From Desulfococcus multivorans (GTDB lineage Bacteria > Desulfobacterota > Desulfobacteria > Desulfobacterales > Desulfococcaceae): a stretch of 64,000 nt of DNA. Location: positions 2,329,001 to 2,393,000 of the forward strand of contig NZ_CP015381.1 of NCBI RefSeq assembly GCF_001854245.1, given 5' to 3'. The stretch's first letter is position 1, and the number at the start of each line of letters is the position of its first letter. Below, one piece after another: positions 14,586 through 21,345 of the stretch. The notes beneath the pieces were generated by a model. The model had not been told where the DNA came from, did no database searches, and saw only the letters and a list, made by a program, of their open reading frames with translations. A program made the position numbers and the translations under genes.

Positions 14586-15212
14586 TCAGGAGGTTTTCCG
14601 AGGCGTGTCGGTTGCGGGAACGCTGACAGGAACCCCCTCGTAGGGTGTTCGTCGTCGACTTCTGGTGGTCTGAGCTTCCCGCATCTGGCGAAGGACCTCG
14701 ATGGCTTCCTTCTGTCCCTGGTAGAGGCGGGACATATCGACGGCCATGCCGGCGATCTGGGCCAGGCCCTGGACGAAGTTGACGTCATCGAGGGTAAATT
14801 CCCAGGGTTCGGCGGTATAGACCCTGAGAGCCCCCAGCATTTTGCCGCCGACGGCGATAGGCACCGAAAGGATCGATTTGATGCCCTCCCTGACCGCAGC
14901 CTCCGGATACTGAAGTCTTGGATCGTCCTCCACATCGTAAATGGCGATCGGTCCGTCCTCCAGGGACTGGGCGATGGATGACATGGCGCTGATCGGCCCT
15001 TTGTTGAGGTATTCGTCGCTCAGCCCGAACGAGGCCGCAATTTCAAGTTCGTGGGTTTTGCGGTTGAAAAGAAACAGCGTGCATCCCTTGACGTTCAGGG
15101 CGGTTTTGATGCCCTCGACGGTCATGAGTACCACTTCCTCGGGATCCCTGGAATGAGAGATGGCTTTGGTAATCTTGACGAAGGACTCGTAATTGATGAC
15201 TTTTCTGTTCAT
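14586..15212 (-). CDS. GAF domain protein
   Basis: 208-aa cytoplasmic protein. A single GAF domain covers about residues 20-165 (VKGCTLFLFNRKTHELEIA, SIAQSLEDGPIAIYDVEDD, GIKSILSVPIAVGGKMLGAL). A short basic, Ser/Arg-rich tail follows (TTRSRRRTPYEG). There is no output domain, so it probably acts as a stand-alone ligand or redox sensor that binds a partner. A strong AAAGGAGGG precedes ATG 15212. The GAF region resembles that of the GAF-ANTAR protein at 18603 in general pattern only. Ligand unknown. Confidence 0.8.
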   Translation of the reverse strand: MNRKVINYESFVKITKAISHSRDPEEVVLMTVEGIKTALNVKGCTLFLFNRKTHELEIAASFGLSDEYLNKGPISAMSSIAQSLEDGPIAIYDVEDDPRLQYPEAAVREGIKSILSVPIAVGGKMLGALRVYTAEPWEFTLDDVNFVQGLAQIAGMAVDMSRLYQGQKEAIEVLRQMREAQTTRSRRRTPYEGVPVSVPATDTPRKTS

Positions 15213-17198: not shown

Positions 17199-18503
17199 AT
17201 GGATTCGAGTCAAATTCGGATTACCTCGGGGGTGAGCGAGCTCGACCGCTTGCTTGGAGGACTTTTTATCGGCGACAACGTCGTCTGGTACGATGACGCC
17301 GGAAGTTTGGCGGGAACCTTCTGCATCAACTTCATACAGGCCTCCCAGGCTGAAAACAAGTTTGTCATATATGTCAGCTTTGACCGATCCCCTAACAACC
17401 TGCTGGAAAAACTCGGCGACCTCGCTGAAAACCCACGCCTCACCATCGTGGACTGCTTCACCTGCGGCAAAGGCGAAGGCTCCGATATTTTCAATCGGTT
17501 CTATAAAAAAGATCGCCATCGACGACAGTCCTGCAACATCGTAAAGATCAACGAACCTCAGGCTTTCCGACAGGTGATGGCGGCCCTCCAAAATATCCAC
17601 AAGCCGCTTCAGGGAGACGTTCGGTTCGTTTTCGAAAGTCTTACGGGCATGCAGGATCTGTGGGGCGGGGAGGAGGCGGTTCTCAAATTCTATACCCATT
17701 CCTGCCCGCAGTTGTATGAACTGAACACCATCGCCTATTGGATCGCCGAGAAAGGGGCCCACTCGCTCAGGCTCAAGGCCCATATCAATCAGATTGCCCA
17801 GGTGGCCGTGGATCTCTCCATGAAACGGGGCCGTTCTTCCCTGACTCTCCTCAAGGCTGAAAAACGTAACCCCGGCACGGTGAACACGCCCAGATATTAC
17901 TGGACCGACGGCACGCAGATCCGCTTTGAGGACCAGAAGCGGGCCTCAGGTCCCATTGACATCGGGCAGCGACTCAAAGCGCTTCGTACCCGTCAGGGAA
18001 TTTCCCAGACCGAACTCGCCAGATCGGTCGGGGTAACGCCCAGCACCATCTCCCAAATCGAGAGCAATCTGATCTACCCGTCCCTGCCGGCCCTGTTCAA
18101 GATCGCCGACACGCTCTCCATCAAGATCTCGGCGTTTTTTCAGGAAAAGGCCCGTCAGAACGACCCTGTGGTCTTTTCGGTAACAGGCGGCGTCAATATC
18201 CGATTCCCGAACCTGCCCAAAGAAAGCATTCAGGGAAAACTCCTGACCCCCATCGGATCGACTCCGCGCGTCGAGACGTCGGTAATCGAAATCCCGGAAC
18301 ACACGGTCCTTCCTGCTCATTTTTACATGCACAAGGGGGAGGAGTTCGGTTACGTGACGGCAGGGCGACTCCAAATGGAAATCAAACAGGTCGCTTACGA
18401 CCTGTCGGCAGGCGATATCATCTACCTTACCGCCGAGGTACCCAGTCAGTGGAAAAATCCCGGACCGGGGCCGGCTCGTCTCCTCTGGCTGAAAATCAGA
18501 TAG
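17199..18503 (+). CDS. Degenerate KaiC-like / XRE / cupin fusion regulator
   Basis: 434-aa protein. Residues 1-235 have the KaiC/RecA layout (ITSGVSELDRLLGG, VIYVSFDRSPNNLLEKLG, FVFESLTGM). The Walker A loop is replaced by WYDDAGSLAGT and the Walker B Asp by Glu, so ATP binding is doubtful. Residues ~255-310 are an XRE helix-turn-helix (RLKALRTRQGISQTELARSVG, STISQIESN). Residues ~350-434 are a cupin (LPAHFYMHKGEEFGYVTAGRLQ, GDIIYL). The last two parts form the common XRE-cupin transcription factor; the KaiC-like part may be a sensor or dimer platform. It is monocistronic and flanked on both sides by inverted relic ends of the 237-bp element. Target genes unknown. Confidence 0.8.
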   Translation: MDSSQIRITSGVSELDRLLGGLFIGDNVVWYDDAGSLAGTFCINFIQASQAENKFVIYVSFDRSPNNLLEKLGDLAENPRLTIVDCFTCGKGEGSDIFNRFYKKDRHRRQSCNIVKINEPQAFRQVMAALQNIHKPLQGDVRFVFESLTGMQDLWGGEEAVLKFYTHSCPQLYELNTIAYWIAEKGAHSLRLKAHINQIAQVAVDLSMKRGRSSLTLLKAEKRNPGTVNTPRYYWTDGTQIRFEDQKRASGPIDIGQRLKALRTRQGISQTELARSVGVTPSTISQIESNLIYPSLPALFKIADTLSIKISAFFQEKARQNDPVVFSVTGGVNIRFPNLPKESIQGKLLTPIGSTPRVETSVIEIPEHTVLPAHFYMHKGEEFGYVTAGRLQMEIKQVAYDLSAGDIIYLTAEVPSQWKNPGPGPARLLWLKIR

Positions 18504-18602: not shown

Positions 18603-19322
18603 ATGAAATCCGACACACGCCAATCCCACGACGAGTATGTGAAGGCCCTCACCGACATCAGTCGGGCCATTACATCGGATCTGTTTCTGGAGGATCTGCT
18701 CAAGCTCATCGTCATGGTCACCGCCAACGTCACCGGCGTGGCCATCTGCTCCCTGTGGCTCATCGAGGAGATTGACGGCCGTCCGAAAATCCGGCTGAAA
18801 GCGACGCAGGCCATCGCTCCGGAATACGTCAAAGACCGGTCCCTCAATCTGACCGAAGGGGTCGTGGGCTATGTTGCCACCACCAAGCGACCGCTGATCA
18901 TCAAAAACGTTCTGAAAAGCAAACGGTTCAAGGAAAAAGAGATGGCCAGGAAGCTCGGGCTCATCTCCATGCTGAGCGTTCCCCTAGAGGTCAAGGAGGA
19001 GAAAGTGATCGGCGTCCTGAACTGCTTTACATCCGAACCGCACGATTTTTCAGAGACCGAGGTCAACCTCATCACCGCCGTATCGAACCAGGCGGCCCTT
19101 GCCATTCTGAACGCCGAACTGGTGGTCAAGACCAAGGTCATCCAGGAGGAGTTGGAGACCCGAAAGATTATCGACCGCGCCAAGGAGATCATTATGCATC
19201 GTCGCGGCATGAAGGGCGACGAGGCCTATCGATGGATTCAGAAAAAAAGCATGGACAGCCGGAAATCCATGCGGCAGGTGGCCGATGCCATTCTGCTCTC
19301 GGAAGAGTTCTACCACACCTGA
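18603..19322 (+). CDS. GAF-ANTAR antitermination regulator
   Basis: 239-aa protein. A GAF sensor domain covers about residues 25-170 (GVAICSLWLIEEIDGRPKIRL, SLNLTEGVVGYVATTKRPLII, LGLISMLSVPLEVKEEKVIGVL). A helical linker leads to a C-terminal ANTAR domain at about 178-235 (ETRKIIDRAKEIIMHRRGMKGDEAYRWIQKKS...RQVADAIL). ANTAR domains bind RNAs with two hexaloop hairpins and prevent termination. Exactly such a leader follows at 19523-19617, ahead of a glutamate-synthase-like gene, so this protein is very likely its regulator. ATG 18603 lies 64 bases after the element relic and has a poor ribosome-binding site. The GAF ligand is not predictable; nitrogen status is a reasonable guess. Confidence 0.88.
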   Translation: MKSDTRQSHDEYVKALTDISRAITSDLFLEDLLKLIVMVTANVTGVAICSLWLIEEIDGRPKIRLKATQAIAPEYVKDRSLNLTEGVVGYVATTKRPLIIKNVLKSKRFKEKEMARKLGLISMLSVPLEVKEEKVIGVLNCFTSEPHDFSETEVNLITAVSNQAALAILNAELVVKTKVIQEELETRKIIDRAKEIIMHRRGMKGDEAYRWIQKKSMDSRKSMRQVADAILLSEEFYHT

Positions 19323-19464
19323 ACCGCGGCCATCGGGACTTCAATGCTCCGGTGGGAGCGGGGCGCGCCCGCGAAATTTCTCTTCAGTCTTCAGTTTTTT
19401 CCGGCCGGCATCACGAAAATCAAAATTGCGACACCCTGTTTTTTTCCGCCCCAATAATTTTTGC

Positions 19465-19493
19465 TTGACATCCCTTTTCAGTAAAACTAAAAT
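19465..19493 (+). promoter_or_regulatory. Sigma70 promoter for ANTAR leader
   Basis: TTGACA (19465-19470), a 17-base spacer, TAAAAT (19488-19493): a near-consensus promoter. Transcription would begin near 19500, about 23 bases before the first hexaloop hairpin. A strong promoter followed by a conditional terminator fits control by antitermination. Confidence 0.8.
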
Positions 19494-19522
19494 ATTTACT
19501 CAAAATTAAGTGTTCTTTCGTT

Positions 19523-19617
19523 GCCGTACAATGGCGTTCGGCGAACACGGGGGAACCTCAAAGACAGAGATAGACAAAGGCGTCTGATTTTCTTCGATAG
19601 CGAAGACAGACGCCTTT
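19523..19617 (+). promoter_or_regulatory. ANTAR-type two-hexaloop antitermination leader RNA
   Basis: Hairpin P1 (19523-19542): GCCG/CGGC stem, a U-U mismatch, A-U and C-G pairs, closing hexaloop AAUGGC (19530-19535). Hairpin P2 (19572-19585): stem AGAC/GUCU closing hexaloop AAAGGC (19576-19581). Both loops carry A at position 1 and G at position 4, the hallmark of ANTAR targets. The 3' strand of P2 is also the 5' strand of the terminator at 19576-19617, so P2 and the terminator exclude each other. Binding of the GAF-ANTAR protein (gene at 18603) to P1-P2 would allow read-through into the gene at 19693. Confidence 0.85.
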
Positions 19618-19626
19618 TTGTTTTTT
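19576..19626 (+). terminator. Intrinsic terminator overlapping ANTAR hairpin P2
   Basis: AAAGGCGTCTG (19576-19586) pairs with CAGACGCCTTT (19607-19617). TCTTCG/CGAAGA extend the stem around an ATAG loop with an ATTT bulge. TTGTTTTTT follows. It is a strong conditional terminator whose left arm includes hexaloop 2. Confidence 0.88.
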
Positions 19627-19692
19627 AGCGATGGGAAAGCGTTCAGAAACAACGATCTCTCATCTCAACCAGTTAAAAAAAGGAGAAATAAC

Positions 19693-21345
19693 GTGCGCTT
19701 TTCTAAAACCAATGATGTTCTGGGAACGGTCAATCGCGGAAATCCGACGGAATCAGGACTGTGCACCCTGTGCCGGGCGGATTGCGAGGGAAAATGCGAA
19801 ACATGGCTGTCAAGTCTCGTTGGGCGCAAGCTGCTTTATCCGAGAAGCTTCGGTATCGTGACGGCCGGTTCCAACAACACGACCCATGTGGGGGTTTCCT
19901 ATAATTCATTGCGAATTCAAGGCTATGCCTACGGCGCTCACGGGCTGGGGGAAGGCTTGAGCACGGATCCCGACGACTGTATATTCCCGAACGTCAATCT
20001 GACCACCCAATTCGGAAAAGCCGTTAAGACCAAGGTTCGCATGCCGCTCATGACCGGCGCTATGGGGTCGACCTTCGTGGCCCAGAAGTACTGGGACGCA
20101 TTTGCCATCGGCGGCGCGCTGGTGGGCATCCCGGTCGTCATCGGCGAAAACGTCGTCGGGGTCGACCGGAACTCGGAGATCACGCCTGGAGATGTCCGAA
20201 AGGGCAAGATCAAGAGCGCTCCCGAGCTCGAGCGACGGATCGACGGTTATCTCCGATATTTCGACGGATACGGCGCCATCATCGTTCAACTCAACGTGGA
20301 AGACACCCGGAACGGCGTTGCGGAATTCGTGGCCGACAAATACGGCGACAAGTGCATCATCGAGCTCAAATGGGGGCAGGGCGCCAAGAACATCGGCGGC
20401 GAAATCCAGGTCCGGAGCCTCGATTACGCACTTTTCCTGAAAAACAGGGGTTACATCGTGGATCCGGACCCCACCATTCCCGAAGTTCAGGAAGCTTTTG
20501 AGAACGGCTCCATCAAGTCTTTCGCCCGTCACAGCCGGTTGGGCGCCACCAATATGGACACCGTCGATCAGGTCCGAAGGGATTTCATGAGCACCGTTGA
20601 ATACCTCCGGAGCATCGGTTTCAATCGGATCACGCTTAAAACCGGCTCCTACGGGATGGAAGAACTGGCCATGGCCATCAAGTTCGCCACCGACGCAAAG
20701 CTCGATCTGCTCACCATAGACGGTTCCGGCGGCGGCACCGGCATGAGCCCCTGGAACATGATGCAGAGCTGGGGCGTGCCGTCCATCCACCTCCACGCAA
20801 AGGCATATGAGTATGCGAGCATTCTGGCCGCAAAAGGCCAAAGCGTTGTGGACATGTCATTTGCCGGGGGGTTTGCAACGGAGGATCACATCTTCAAGGC
20901 CCTGGCGCTGGGAGCGCCTTTCACCAAGATGGTCTGCATGGGCAGAGCCGTTATGGTGCCGGGCTTCGTGGGAGCCAACATCGAAGGAGCGCTCTTCCCC
21001 GACAGAAGAGGCGCCGTCAACGGCCACTGGTCCGAGCTGCCGAAAACCGTCCAGCGGGTCGGCAACAGCGCCAAGGAAATCTTTGCCGCTTATTTCGACG
21101 TCGAAAAGAAGGTGGGCAAGGATGAAATGAAGCACATTCCCTACGGTGCCATCGCCTTCTGCACCCTGGCGGACAAGCTGGCCGGCGGTCTGCAGCAGCT
21201 CCTGGCCGGCGCCCGCAAATTTTCCATGTCCCAGATCACGCGGAACGAGATCTTCTCGGCCAACCGGGAAACCGCCCTCGAGATCGGGGTTCCCCACGTG
21301 TCCGACATCAACAATGAAAGCGCGAAAAAGATTCTCAATTCCTGA
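19693..21345 (+). CDS. FMN-binding glutamate synthase-family protein
   Basis: 550-aa protein related to the FMN/FeS synthase domain of glutamate synthase, without the glutaminase and GXGXG domains. An N-terminal Cys cluster (GLCTLCRADCEGKC) is followed by a long TIM-barrel: GAMGSTFVAQKYWDAFAIGG, IELKWGQGAKN, TIDGSGGGTGMSPWNM, GGFATEDHIFKALALGA, and CMGRAVMVPGF. Many anaerobes carry such stand-alone proteins; the electron donor and true substrate are often unproven. GTG 19693 is preceded by AAAAAGGAG at 7 bases; the frame upstream lies inside the leader terminator and is not a real start. Expression should depend on the ANTAR leader. Confidence 0.88.
   Translation: MRFSKTNDVLGTVNRGNPTESGLCTLCRADCEGKCETWLSSLVGRKLLYPRSFGIVTAGSNNTTHVGVSYNSLRIQGYAYGAHGLGEGLSTDPDDCIFPNVNLTTQFGKAVKTKVRMPLMTGAMGSTFVAQKYWDAFAIGGALVGIPVVIGENVVGVDRNSEITPGDVRKGKIKSAPELERRIDGYLRYFDGYGAIIVQLNVEDTRNGVAEFVADKYGDKCIIELKWGQGAKNIGGEIQVRSLDYALFLKNRGYIVDPDPTIPEVQEAFENGSIKSFARHSRLGATNMDTVDQVRRDFMSTVEYLRSIGFNRITLKTGSYGMEELAMAIKFATDAKLDLLTIDGSGGGTGMSPWNMMQSWGVPSIHLHAKAYEYASILAAKGQSVVDMSFAGGFATEDHIFKALALGAPFTKMVCMGRAVMVPGFVGANIEGALFPDRRGAVNGHWSELPKTVQRVGNSAKEIFAAYFDVEKKVGKDEMKHIPYGAIAFCTLADKLAGGLQQLLAGARKFSMSQITRNEIFSANRETALEIGVPHVSDINNESAKKILNS

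Follow-up and report, generated by a model that had tools for sequence, protein, structure and literature searches.

The locus consists of two forward-strand genes separated by a gap of 370 nt, and a promoter, two hairpins (P1 and P2) and a terminator all lie inside this gap (Table 1). Together they form an RNA leader that is able to fold as a terminator or as two small hairpins. Here, the window is the whole stretch of DNA that was analysed (64,000 nucleotides). The sequence-only reading had placed at this site a near-consensus promoter, two hexaloops of the A1/G4 type, a terminator that shares the second hexaloop, a GAF-ANTAR gene as the immediate upstream neighbour and a stand-alone glutamate-synthase-like gene under control. 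We found each of these where it had been put: TTGACA at 19465–19470 and TAAAAT at 19488–19493 with a 17-nt spacer, loops AAUGGC at 19530–19535 and AAAGGC at 19576–19581, a terminator that takes up loop 2 and the 3' strand of P2, an upstream product matching ANTAR PF03861 (E 2e-20) and a downstream product matching PF01645 (E 4.5e-15). A promoter scan of 19300–19800 found this promoter-like site as the sole one, with a mean of 0.4 sites in shuffled sequence.

Table 1. Features of the leader locus in window coordinates (domains in residues of the protein).
Feature	Position	Strand	Basis
GAF-ANTAR one-component regulator gene, 239 aa	18603..19322	+	Pfam GAF_2, ANTAR
GAF-ANTAR protein domains	GAF residues 29-168; ANTAR residues 181-231		
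Sigma-70-type promoter TTGACA-17-TAAAAT	19465..19493	+	11/12 consensus matches
Promoter-spacer element TCAGTAAAACTAA	19478..19490	+	resembles TTAGTNNNNCTAA in other promoters of the enzyme gene family
P1 hairpin	19510..19548	+	sequence; upper-stem covariation; R2 match 19519-19587
P2 hairpin UAGAC-(AAAGGC)-GUCUG, antiterminator half	19571..19586	+	sequence
Intrinsic terminator	19576..19626	+	fold -23.7 kcal/mol; P2 overlap in relatives' leaders
Shine-Dalgarno-like AAGGAGA	19680..19686	+	sequence
Stand-alone glutamate-synthase-domain-like protein, 550 aa, presumed controlled gene	19693..21345	+	PF01645

The downstream gene starts with a GTG codon. The PF01645 match of its 550-aa product is partial (residues 296–422); beyond it, Pfam gave nothing up to E 0.001 and NCBIfam nothing at all. 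The product is glutamate-synthase-domain-like and a putative enzyme. A structure model (pLDDT 68) recovered generic FMN and other barrels and, given its low confidence, was not used for function. Homologues at 77–95% identity are present in 19 of 57 other genomes.

In P1, an upper stem (GCCGUAC/GUUCGGC, with one U-U mismatch) surrounds the first hexaloop, and a lower stem that we read by eye (GUGUUC/GAACAC) is followed by a 7-nt bulge before the upper stem. The terminator arms are AAAGGCGUCUG and CAGACGCCUUU, and a U-rich tract follows; the 5' arm is made of loop 2 and the P2 3' strand, and the 3' arm reaches 19617. Because loop 2 and the P2 3' strand are used by both structures, P2 and the terminator are mutually exclusive. 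Tandem hairpins of at least 3 bp each, as expected of an ANTAR target RNA, are present in the window. The two cores are 35 nt apart here and 13–51 nt apart across leaders; EutV fails with a P1–P2 linker that is 20 nt longer (PMC8934654), and the extended P1 of the predicted fold reduces the distance.

When we folded the 122-nt leader, its energy was far below that of shuffled sequence (z –6.2), and the terminator alone (–23.7 kcal/mol, z –5.6) was reached by 0 of 200 shuffles. Folded singly, neither P1 (z –1.1) nor P2 (z –0.4) is exceptional in energy; the evidence for the hairpins is therefore comparative. By itself, the P1 region folds preferentially with a triloop; the hexaloop form appears in the whole-leader fold. 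The lowest-energy structure of the complete leader contains the terminator and a P1 lengthened by the lower stem, as expected for a default "off" state. A simple terminator scan (one uninterrupted stem, loop of 3–8) found no site in the leader because the terminator stem is interrupted.

To compare leaders, we built two covariance models with rough E-values, R1 from 21 leaders located 5' of enzyme-gene homologues, including the window's own, and R2 from 23 leaders that are all from other genomes, with the window genome left out of training. A covariance-model search had been proposed as a check on the leader; Rfam offered no usable family for it, but the purpose-built R2 model matches the leader at 19519–19587 (34.2 bits, E 4.7e-6), and the next best match in the window has E 7.2. 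Across the 4.46 Mb genome, the leader is the single R2 match up to E 10. The window leader, with its U-U mismatch in P1, is a somewhat divergent member of the family. A second R1 match in the same genome (C1:1724725, E 0.41) was set aside as chance, as it lies antisense inside a frame that we read as PurF-like and is absent from the R2 matches.

We then measured covariation, the check that had been set beforehand, in two alignments. Alignment A3 holds 21 sequences from 29 upstream regions, after leaving out three short ones (L007, L019, L030), one with several units (L010) and four with no clear dual hairpin (L011, L022, L024, L027). Because its rows were partly chosen by eye on the displayed hairpins and P1 and P2 were placed by pattern, its closing pairs and loops are partly selected. 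Alignment A4 holds 23 sequences from other genomes; of 78 upstream regions that were 120 nt or longer, we dropped two duplicates (L136, L143), 47 without the P2 pattern and six without the P1 pattern. Among the 47 are two loci with an adjacent GAF-ANTAR gene, L139 (R1 E 0.006) and L187 (R1 E 0.57). As P1 and P2 in A4 were picked by loop and closing-pair patterns, selection dictates the letters of its loops, the pairs that close P1 and the core of P2, and the outer pairs alone serve as a test.

P1 covaries in both sets. In A3, six of eight P1 pairs change on both sides and 91.1% of P1 cells are paired (87.9% for the whole structure); the covariation score for the whole structure is 0.405 as compared to 0.190 in shuffled alignments (0 of 500 reach it) and 0.088–0.178 when the structure is slid along the alignment. 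In A4, five of seven P1 pairs change on both sides, and the score is 0.382 as compared to 0.157 (0 of 500). With P1 selected solely on the loop and the two pairs closing it, 82 of 92 cells are paired at the four adjoining outer positions, a number that none of 2000 shuffles reached (mean 58, highest value 70). One of the five measures, the count of pairs changed on both sides, is unexceptional, being reached by 69 of 500 shuffles of A3 and 56 of 500 of A4. The AC/GU closing pairs of P1 are constant in these sets. P2 gives no covariation in its GAC/GUC core, which is unchanged in all A3 and A4 rows (partly by selection), so the covariation check is silent on P2; its outer pairs are weak, with 12 and 6 of 21 unpaired in A3 and 10 of 23 in A4. 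Such invariance is expected if one strand serves both P2 and the terminator, and P2 is backed by sequence, not by covariation.

Both A1 and G4 are present in 25 of 27 P1 loops and 26 of 27 P2 loops, counted in R1-found leaders 5' of the enzyme gene in the second genome set. A terminator that overlaps P2, defined as at least nine pairs starting from loop 2 and then a T run, is found in all 44 selected leaders (21/21 in A3, 23/23 in A4; shuffled means 3.1 and 2.6).

If the leader were a metabolite-binding riboswitch that works independently of protein, a terminator with alternative hairpins would be its usual layout. However, Rfam found only tRNA in the window at gathering score, and no regulatory family; in a permissive search of 19300–19800 the best match was P11 (RF00625) at E 0.05 and 19.1 bits against the 70 required. 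The leader alignments contain no conserved core outside the hairpins, and leaders co-occur with ANTAR genes (below). We therefore consider a riboswitch extremely improbable.

To ask how leaders and ANTAR genes are distributed, we scored 58 genomes (our own and relatives) for an R1 match at E ≤5.3e-4 and for PF03861. Leader and ANTAR gene are both present in 31 genomes and both missing in 23; one has a leader only (G035, 65% complete) and three have an ANTAR gene only (G022, G045, G056). In total, 32 genomes have the leader and 34 the ANTAR domain (Fisher p 6.5e-12). Besides G035, the first R1 match in an ANTAR-less genome has E 0.0325 (G028). Without the 21 training genomes, the 37 that are left divide in the same order (both, leader only, ANTAR only, neither) into 11/0/3/23 (p 4e-7). 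A second set of 50 genomes, hand-picked from 77, gives 26/1/12/11 (p 5e-4), where L137 was scored leader-less on 105 nt of upstream sequence. Twelve of the 23 leader-less genomes in that set carry some ANTAR gene, and some of these 12 proteins are of another type, such as a receiver-ANTAR protein in Pelotomaculum. These p-values overstate independence, as the genomes are related, and the thresholds for calling a leader present (E ≤5.3e-4 for the 58 genomes, ≤0.006 for loci) were set after viewing the lists.

At the level of loci, 17 of 80 have a GAF-ANTAR gene of at least 59% identity beside the enzyme gene, and all 17 have an R1 match at E ≤0.006; two of the 17 adjacent genes point the opposite way (L126, L139). 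An Endomicrobia locus (L187) has a similar layout with a 37% identical GAF-ANTAR protein and a weak R1 match. Thirty R1 matches at E ≤0.006 were found in the 80 loci: 28 are just 5' of the enzyme gene (L136, among these, duplicates a record used in training), one is upstream of glnA (L131) and one overlaps a gene start (L161). In our own genome, there is one ANTAR protein and one leader, found only at the 550-aa gene.

The hairpin lies in the gap downstream of the GAF-ANTAR gene, as would a plain terminator of that gene in a leader with no regulatory role. However, a promoter-like site separates the gene from the hairpin, and P1 covariation would serve no purpose in a plain terminator. The leader also stays 5' of the enzyme gene in five genomes whose one ANTAR gene lies elsewhere: G002, where it is some 5 kb distant, and G004, G007, G025 and G040, which have it on a different contig. 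Leaders also precede glutamate dehydrogenase, glnA and other operons. A plain terminator thus has almost no credence with us. The same genomes bear on two proposals of the sequence-only reading. Conservation of the three-part locus holds for the leader and the enzyme gene, but the ANTAR gene is distant in several relatives; a two-gene circuit describes the present genome, but adjacency is not obligatory and relatives have further targets.

By far the best reading of the parts, their conservation, the P1 covariation, the exclusive pairing of P2 and terminator and the co-occurrence with ANTAR genes, all of which are observed, is an antitermination leader of the EutV/NasR type under a GAF-ANTAR protein, and we hold it with high confidence. 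The hexaloops, P1 covariation, P2–terminator overlap and ANTAR co-occurrence all fit the ANTAR antitermination leader that had been proposed from the letters. We infer binding of the protein to the RNA, the direction of antitermination and the signal at this leader, as well as regulation by a GAF ligand. Transcription would start near 19500 and stop by default at the terminator. When the GAF domain of the upstream-encoded protein senses its ligand, an ANTAR dimer would bind the nascent P1 and P2 hexaloop hairpins. P2 would be held closed, which would keep loop 2 and the P2 3' strand from the terminator, and with the terminator blocked, RNA polymerase would continue into the glutamate-synthase-like gene.

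An ANTAR protein could instead promote termination, or act on translation or RNA stability, and translation is the presumed point of action of some ANTAR RNAs, according to passages in PMC3369931 and PMC8164766. We regard this as very unlikely here, as the bases common to P2 and the terminator in 44 of 44 leaders are the layout of antitermination, and some 55 nt separate the end of the hairpins from the AAGGAG at 19680.

The antitermination reading places the leader in a known type of RNA switch; what is new is a GAF-type regulator with a well-supported set of putative targets. The mechanism, the dual-hairpin motif and a link to glutamate synthase (in Desulfotomaculum reducens) are described in the relevant passages of Ramesh et al. 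2012 (PMC3369931). As described there, the antiterminators EutV/eutP, NasR/nasF and AmiR/amiE have, like this locus, two short A1/G4 hexaloop hairpins, an overlap of P2 and terminator, an ANTAR gene in the genome and nitrogen-related targets. In contrast to the EutV, NasR and AmiR systems, we find here a one-component GAF-ANTAR regulator, a genome related to Desulfobacterales, constant AC/GU closing pairs in P1, more variable spacing and a single leader. NasR (NIT-ANTAR, nitrate) is likewise a one-component sensor with an ANTAR domain that acts by attenuation 5' of a nitrogen-assimilation operon, but its sensor is NIT rather than GAF (PMC7496416, in the part on NasR). Ramesh et al. stated in 2012, in the passage concerned, that no PAS- or GAF-containing ANTAR protein had been characterised (PMC3369931); a 2020 account names NasR and PAL as the two characterised one-component ANTAR proteins and, in its pertinent text, treats GAF-ANTAR solely as a class (PMC7496416); and a 2026 paper mentions the Streptomyces ANTAR-GAF protein sco7423 as one of unknown function (PMC12838073, passage on sco7423). 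A literature search that covered few subscription journals turned up neither a GAF-ANTAR protein whose RNA target or ligand has been demonstrated, nor more recent studies of a locus like this one, nor work joining the ANTAR domain with "Desulfobact".

To relate the regulator to EutV, we compared its domains and RNA-contact residues. Its ANTAR match scores 72.8 bits against a gathering threshold of 27.3, and its GAF_2 match has E 1.4e-19. In an AlphaFold2 model (pLDDT 83.6) the C-terminal helical fold expected of an ANTAR domain is present, with helices at 151–201, 205–219 and 223–237. Among the RNA-contact residues of EutV given in the contact section of PMC8934654, R142, K143, K149, Y164, M172 and R175 are matched by R187, K188, K194, Y209, M217 and R220 of the regulator, where the EutV numbering carries an inferred offset of 2 between chain and paper. 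EutV K147 is conservatively changed to R192, E160 is replaced by G205, and R168, N173 and R177 by Q213, D218 and S222. None of 29 A2 proteins has glutamate at the E160 position, and most have glycine (25 of 29), although an alanine mutant of EutV E160 bound 60-fold worse (PMC8934654, binding results). Since G4 is kept despite this replacement, judging from the sequences, G4 recognition may differ in detail. A second GAF-domain protein without an ANTAR match is encoded at 14586–15212 on the reverse strand (GAF_2 E 3.9e-14), at a distance of some 3.4 kb from the regulator gene.

The GAF domain is nearest NifA and PtsP by profile. NifA is its best NCBIfam match (1.6e-13, 50 bits), a score far below the whole-protein cut-off of that model. 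By sequence the nearest structure is the PtsP GAF 3ci6, and by fold 4mcw and 3ci6. According to a review, in the passage on NifA, the A. vinelandii NifA GAF domain binds 2-oxoglutarate, and the output of NifA is a sigma-54 activator on DNA (PMC9866876) in contrast to the RNA-binding ANTAR domain here. Carrying 2-oxoglutarate over from the NifA GAF to the regulator GAF would be an argument by analogy.

We also looked at the genes behind the leaders of relatives. Targets were assigned by Pfam on L100, L103, L107, L108 and L131, and the rest by like reading-frame starts. The leader is 5' of glutamate dehydrogenase in G016, G027 and G029, of glutamine synthetase in L131, and of a classical gltB followed by a gltD-like gene in G007. 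In G031, G037 and G046 it precedes an operon of an amidotransferase-like protein, a ferredoxin-type synthase and a GXGXG/oxidoreductase protein, and in G020, G021, G041 and G050 an operon of FlpD, a MetV-like protein, MetF and two PF01645 proteins. The names "amidotransferase-like" and gltD are our own judgement of the sequences; Pfam matched none of the amidotransferase-like proteins at 1e-5. One R1 match (G046:C13, E 5.3e-4) precedes an enoyl-CoA-hydratase-like frame and is probably false, and two others (G011:C391 and G037:C324), with little or no downstream sequence read, were assigned to no gene. The ferredoxin-type synthase operon of our own genome (C1:3974318) has no R1 or R2 match. In Omnitrophota, a GAF-ANTAR gene adjoins glutamine synthetase, and an ammonium transporter lies beyond (L215).

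Because the relatives' targets are glutamine synthetase, glutamate synthase and glutamate dehydrogenase and the GAF domain is nearest NifA and PtsP, the signal may be a nitrogen-status metabolite. By analogy we would tentatively put 2-oxoglutarate first, somewhat short of an even chance, and then glutamine or glutamate. That glutamate dehydrogenase, glutamate synthase and glutamine synthetase come under one type of switch would point to glutamate demand or 2-oxoglutarate rather than to ammonium scarcity alone. The switch could also be real and its GAF signal something other than nitrogen status, such as redox, a cyclic nucleotide or a protein partner, as GAF domains bind many ligands and many of the Foldseek matches are cyclic-nucleotide GAFs; with the assignable extra targets, G046:C13 aside, all carrying glutamate synthase, glutamate dehydrogenase or glutamine synthetase genes, and with NifA and PtsP as the best profile matches, we view this as a substantial minority possibility. 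If the ligand is a nitrogen metabolite, the switch would add an RNA-level nitrogen sensor in sulfate-reducing bacteria. The evidence strongly supports the leader as a predicted protein-operated on/off switch for ammonium assimilation in a sulfate-reducing bacterium. More speculatively, and with rather less than even confidence, the GAF-ANTAR protein could be a one-component nitrogen-metabolite sensor that acts by antitermination over glutamine synthetase, glutamate synthase and glutamate dehydrogenase across Desulfobacterales and, in diverged form, Omnitrophota, that is, a general nitrogen control rather than a single-operon switch. The locus is a clean test case, with one ANTAR gene adjoining one leader, and relatives supply natural variants.

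Several further arrangements were seen among the relatives. In L103, L104, L105 and L112, leader operons join FlpD, a MetV-like protein and methylenetetrahydrofolate reductase with glutamate-synthase-domain proteins (by Pfam in L103 only), which suggests an unexpected link of one-carbon metabolism and ammonium assimilation. In Pelotomaculum (L210), glutamine synthetase and a glutamate-synthase-like frame flank a receiver-ANTAR gene, and differing ANTAR architectures thus seem to occupy similar nitrogen contexts. In some leaders the hexaloops appear to be in tandem or tripled: an additional A1/G4 hexaloop hairpin (4 bp or more) lies in the linkers of L018 and L004 (2 of 44 leaders), L010 (G046) has several A1/G4 hairpins 5' of one gene, and two P1-like hairpins can be seen by eye in L107 near 1600–1700 (G007) and in L102 at 1535–1622 (G016).

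The promoters of the enzyme gene family contain a further element. Of 55 upstream regions, 19 carry the partly palindromic motif AG(T/C)N3-4RCTAA between –35 and –10, at an almost constant distance behind TTGAC (0.15 regions on average and at most 2 after shuffling). It is also present in G003, a genome without an ANTAR match, and a stricter form occurs once in our own genome. The element is possibly an operator for a second regulator or an extended –10. The gene that adjoins the regulator gene on its other side (17199–18503) encodes a protein with HTH_3 (1.7e-14) and Cupin_2 (1.5e-12) matches and a KaiC-like N-terminus, and its product is a candidate reader of the promoter-spacer element. Similar frames are found near the enzyme gene in L104 and L131.
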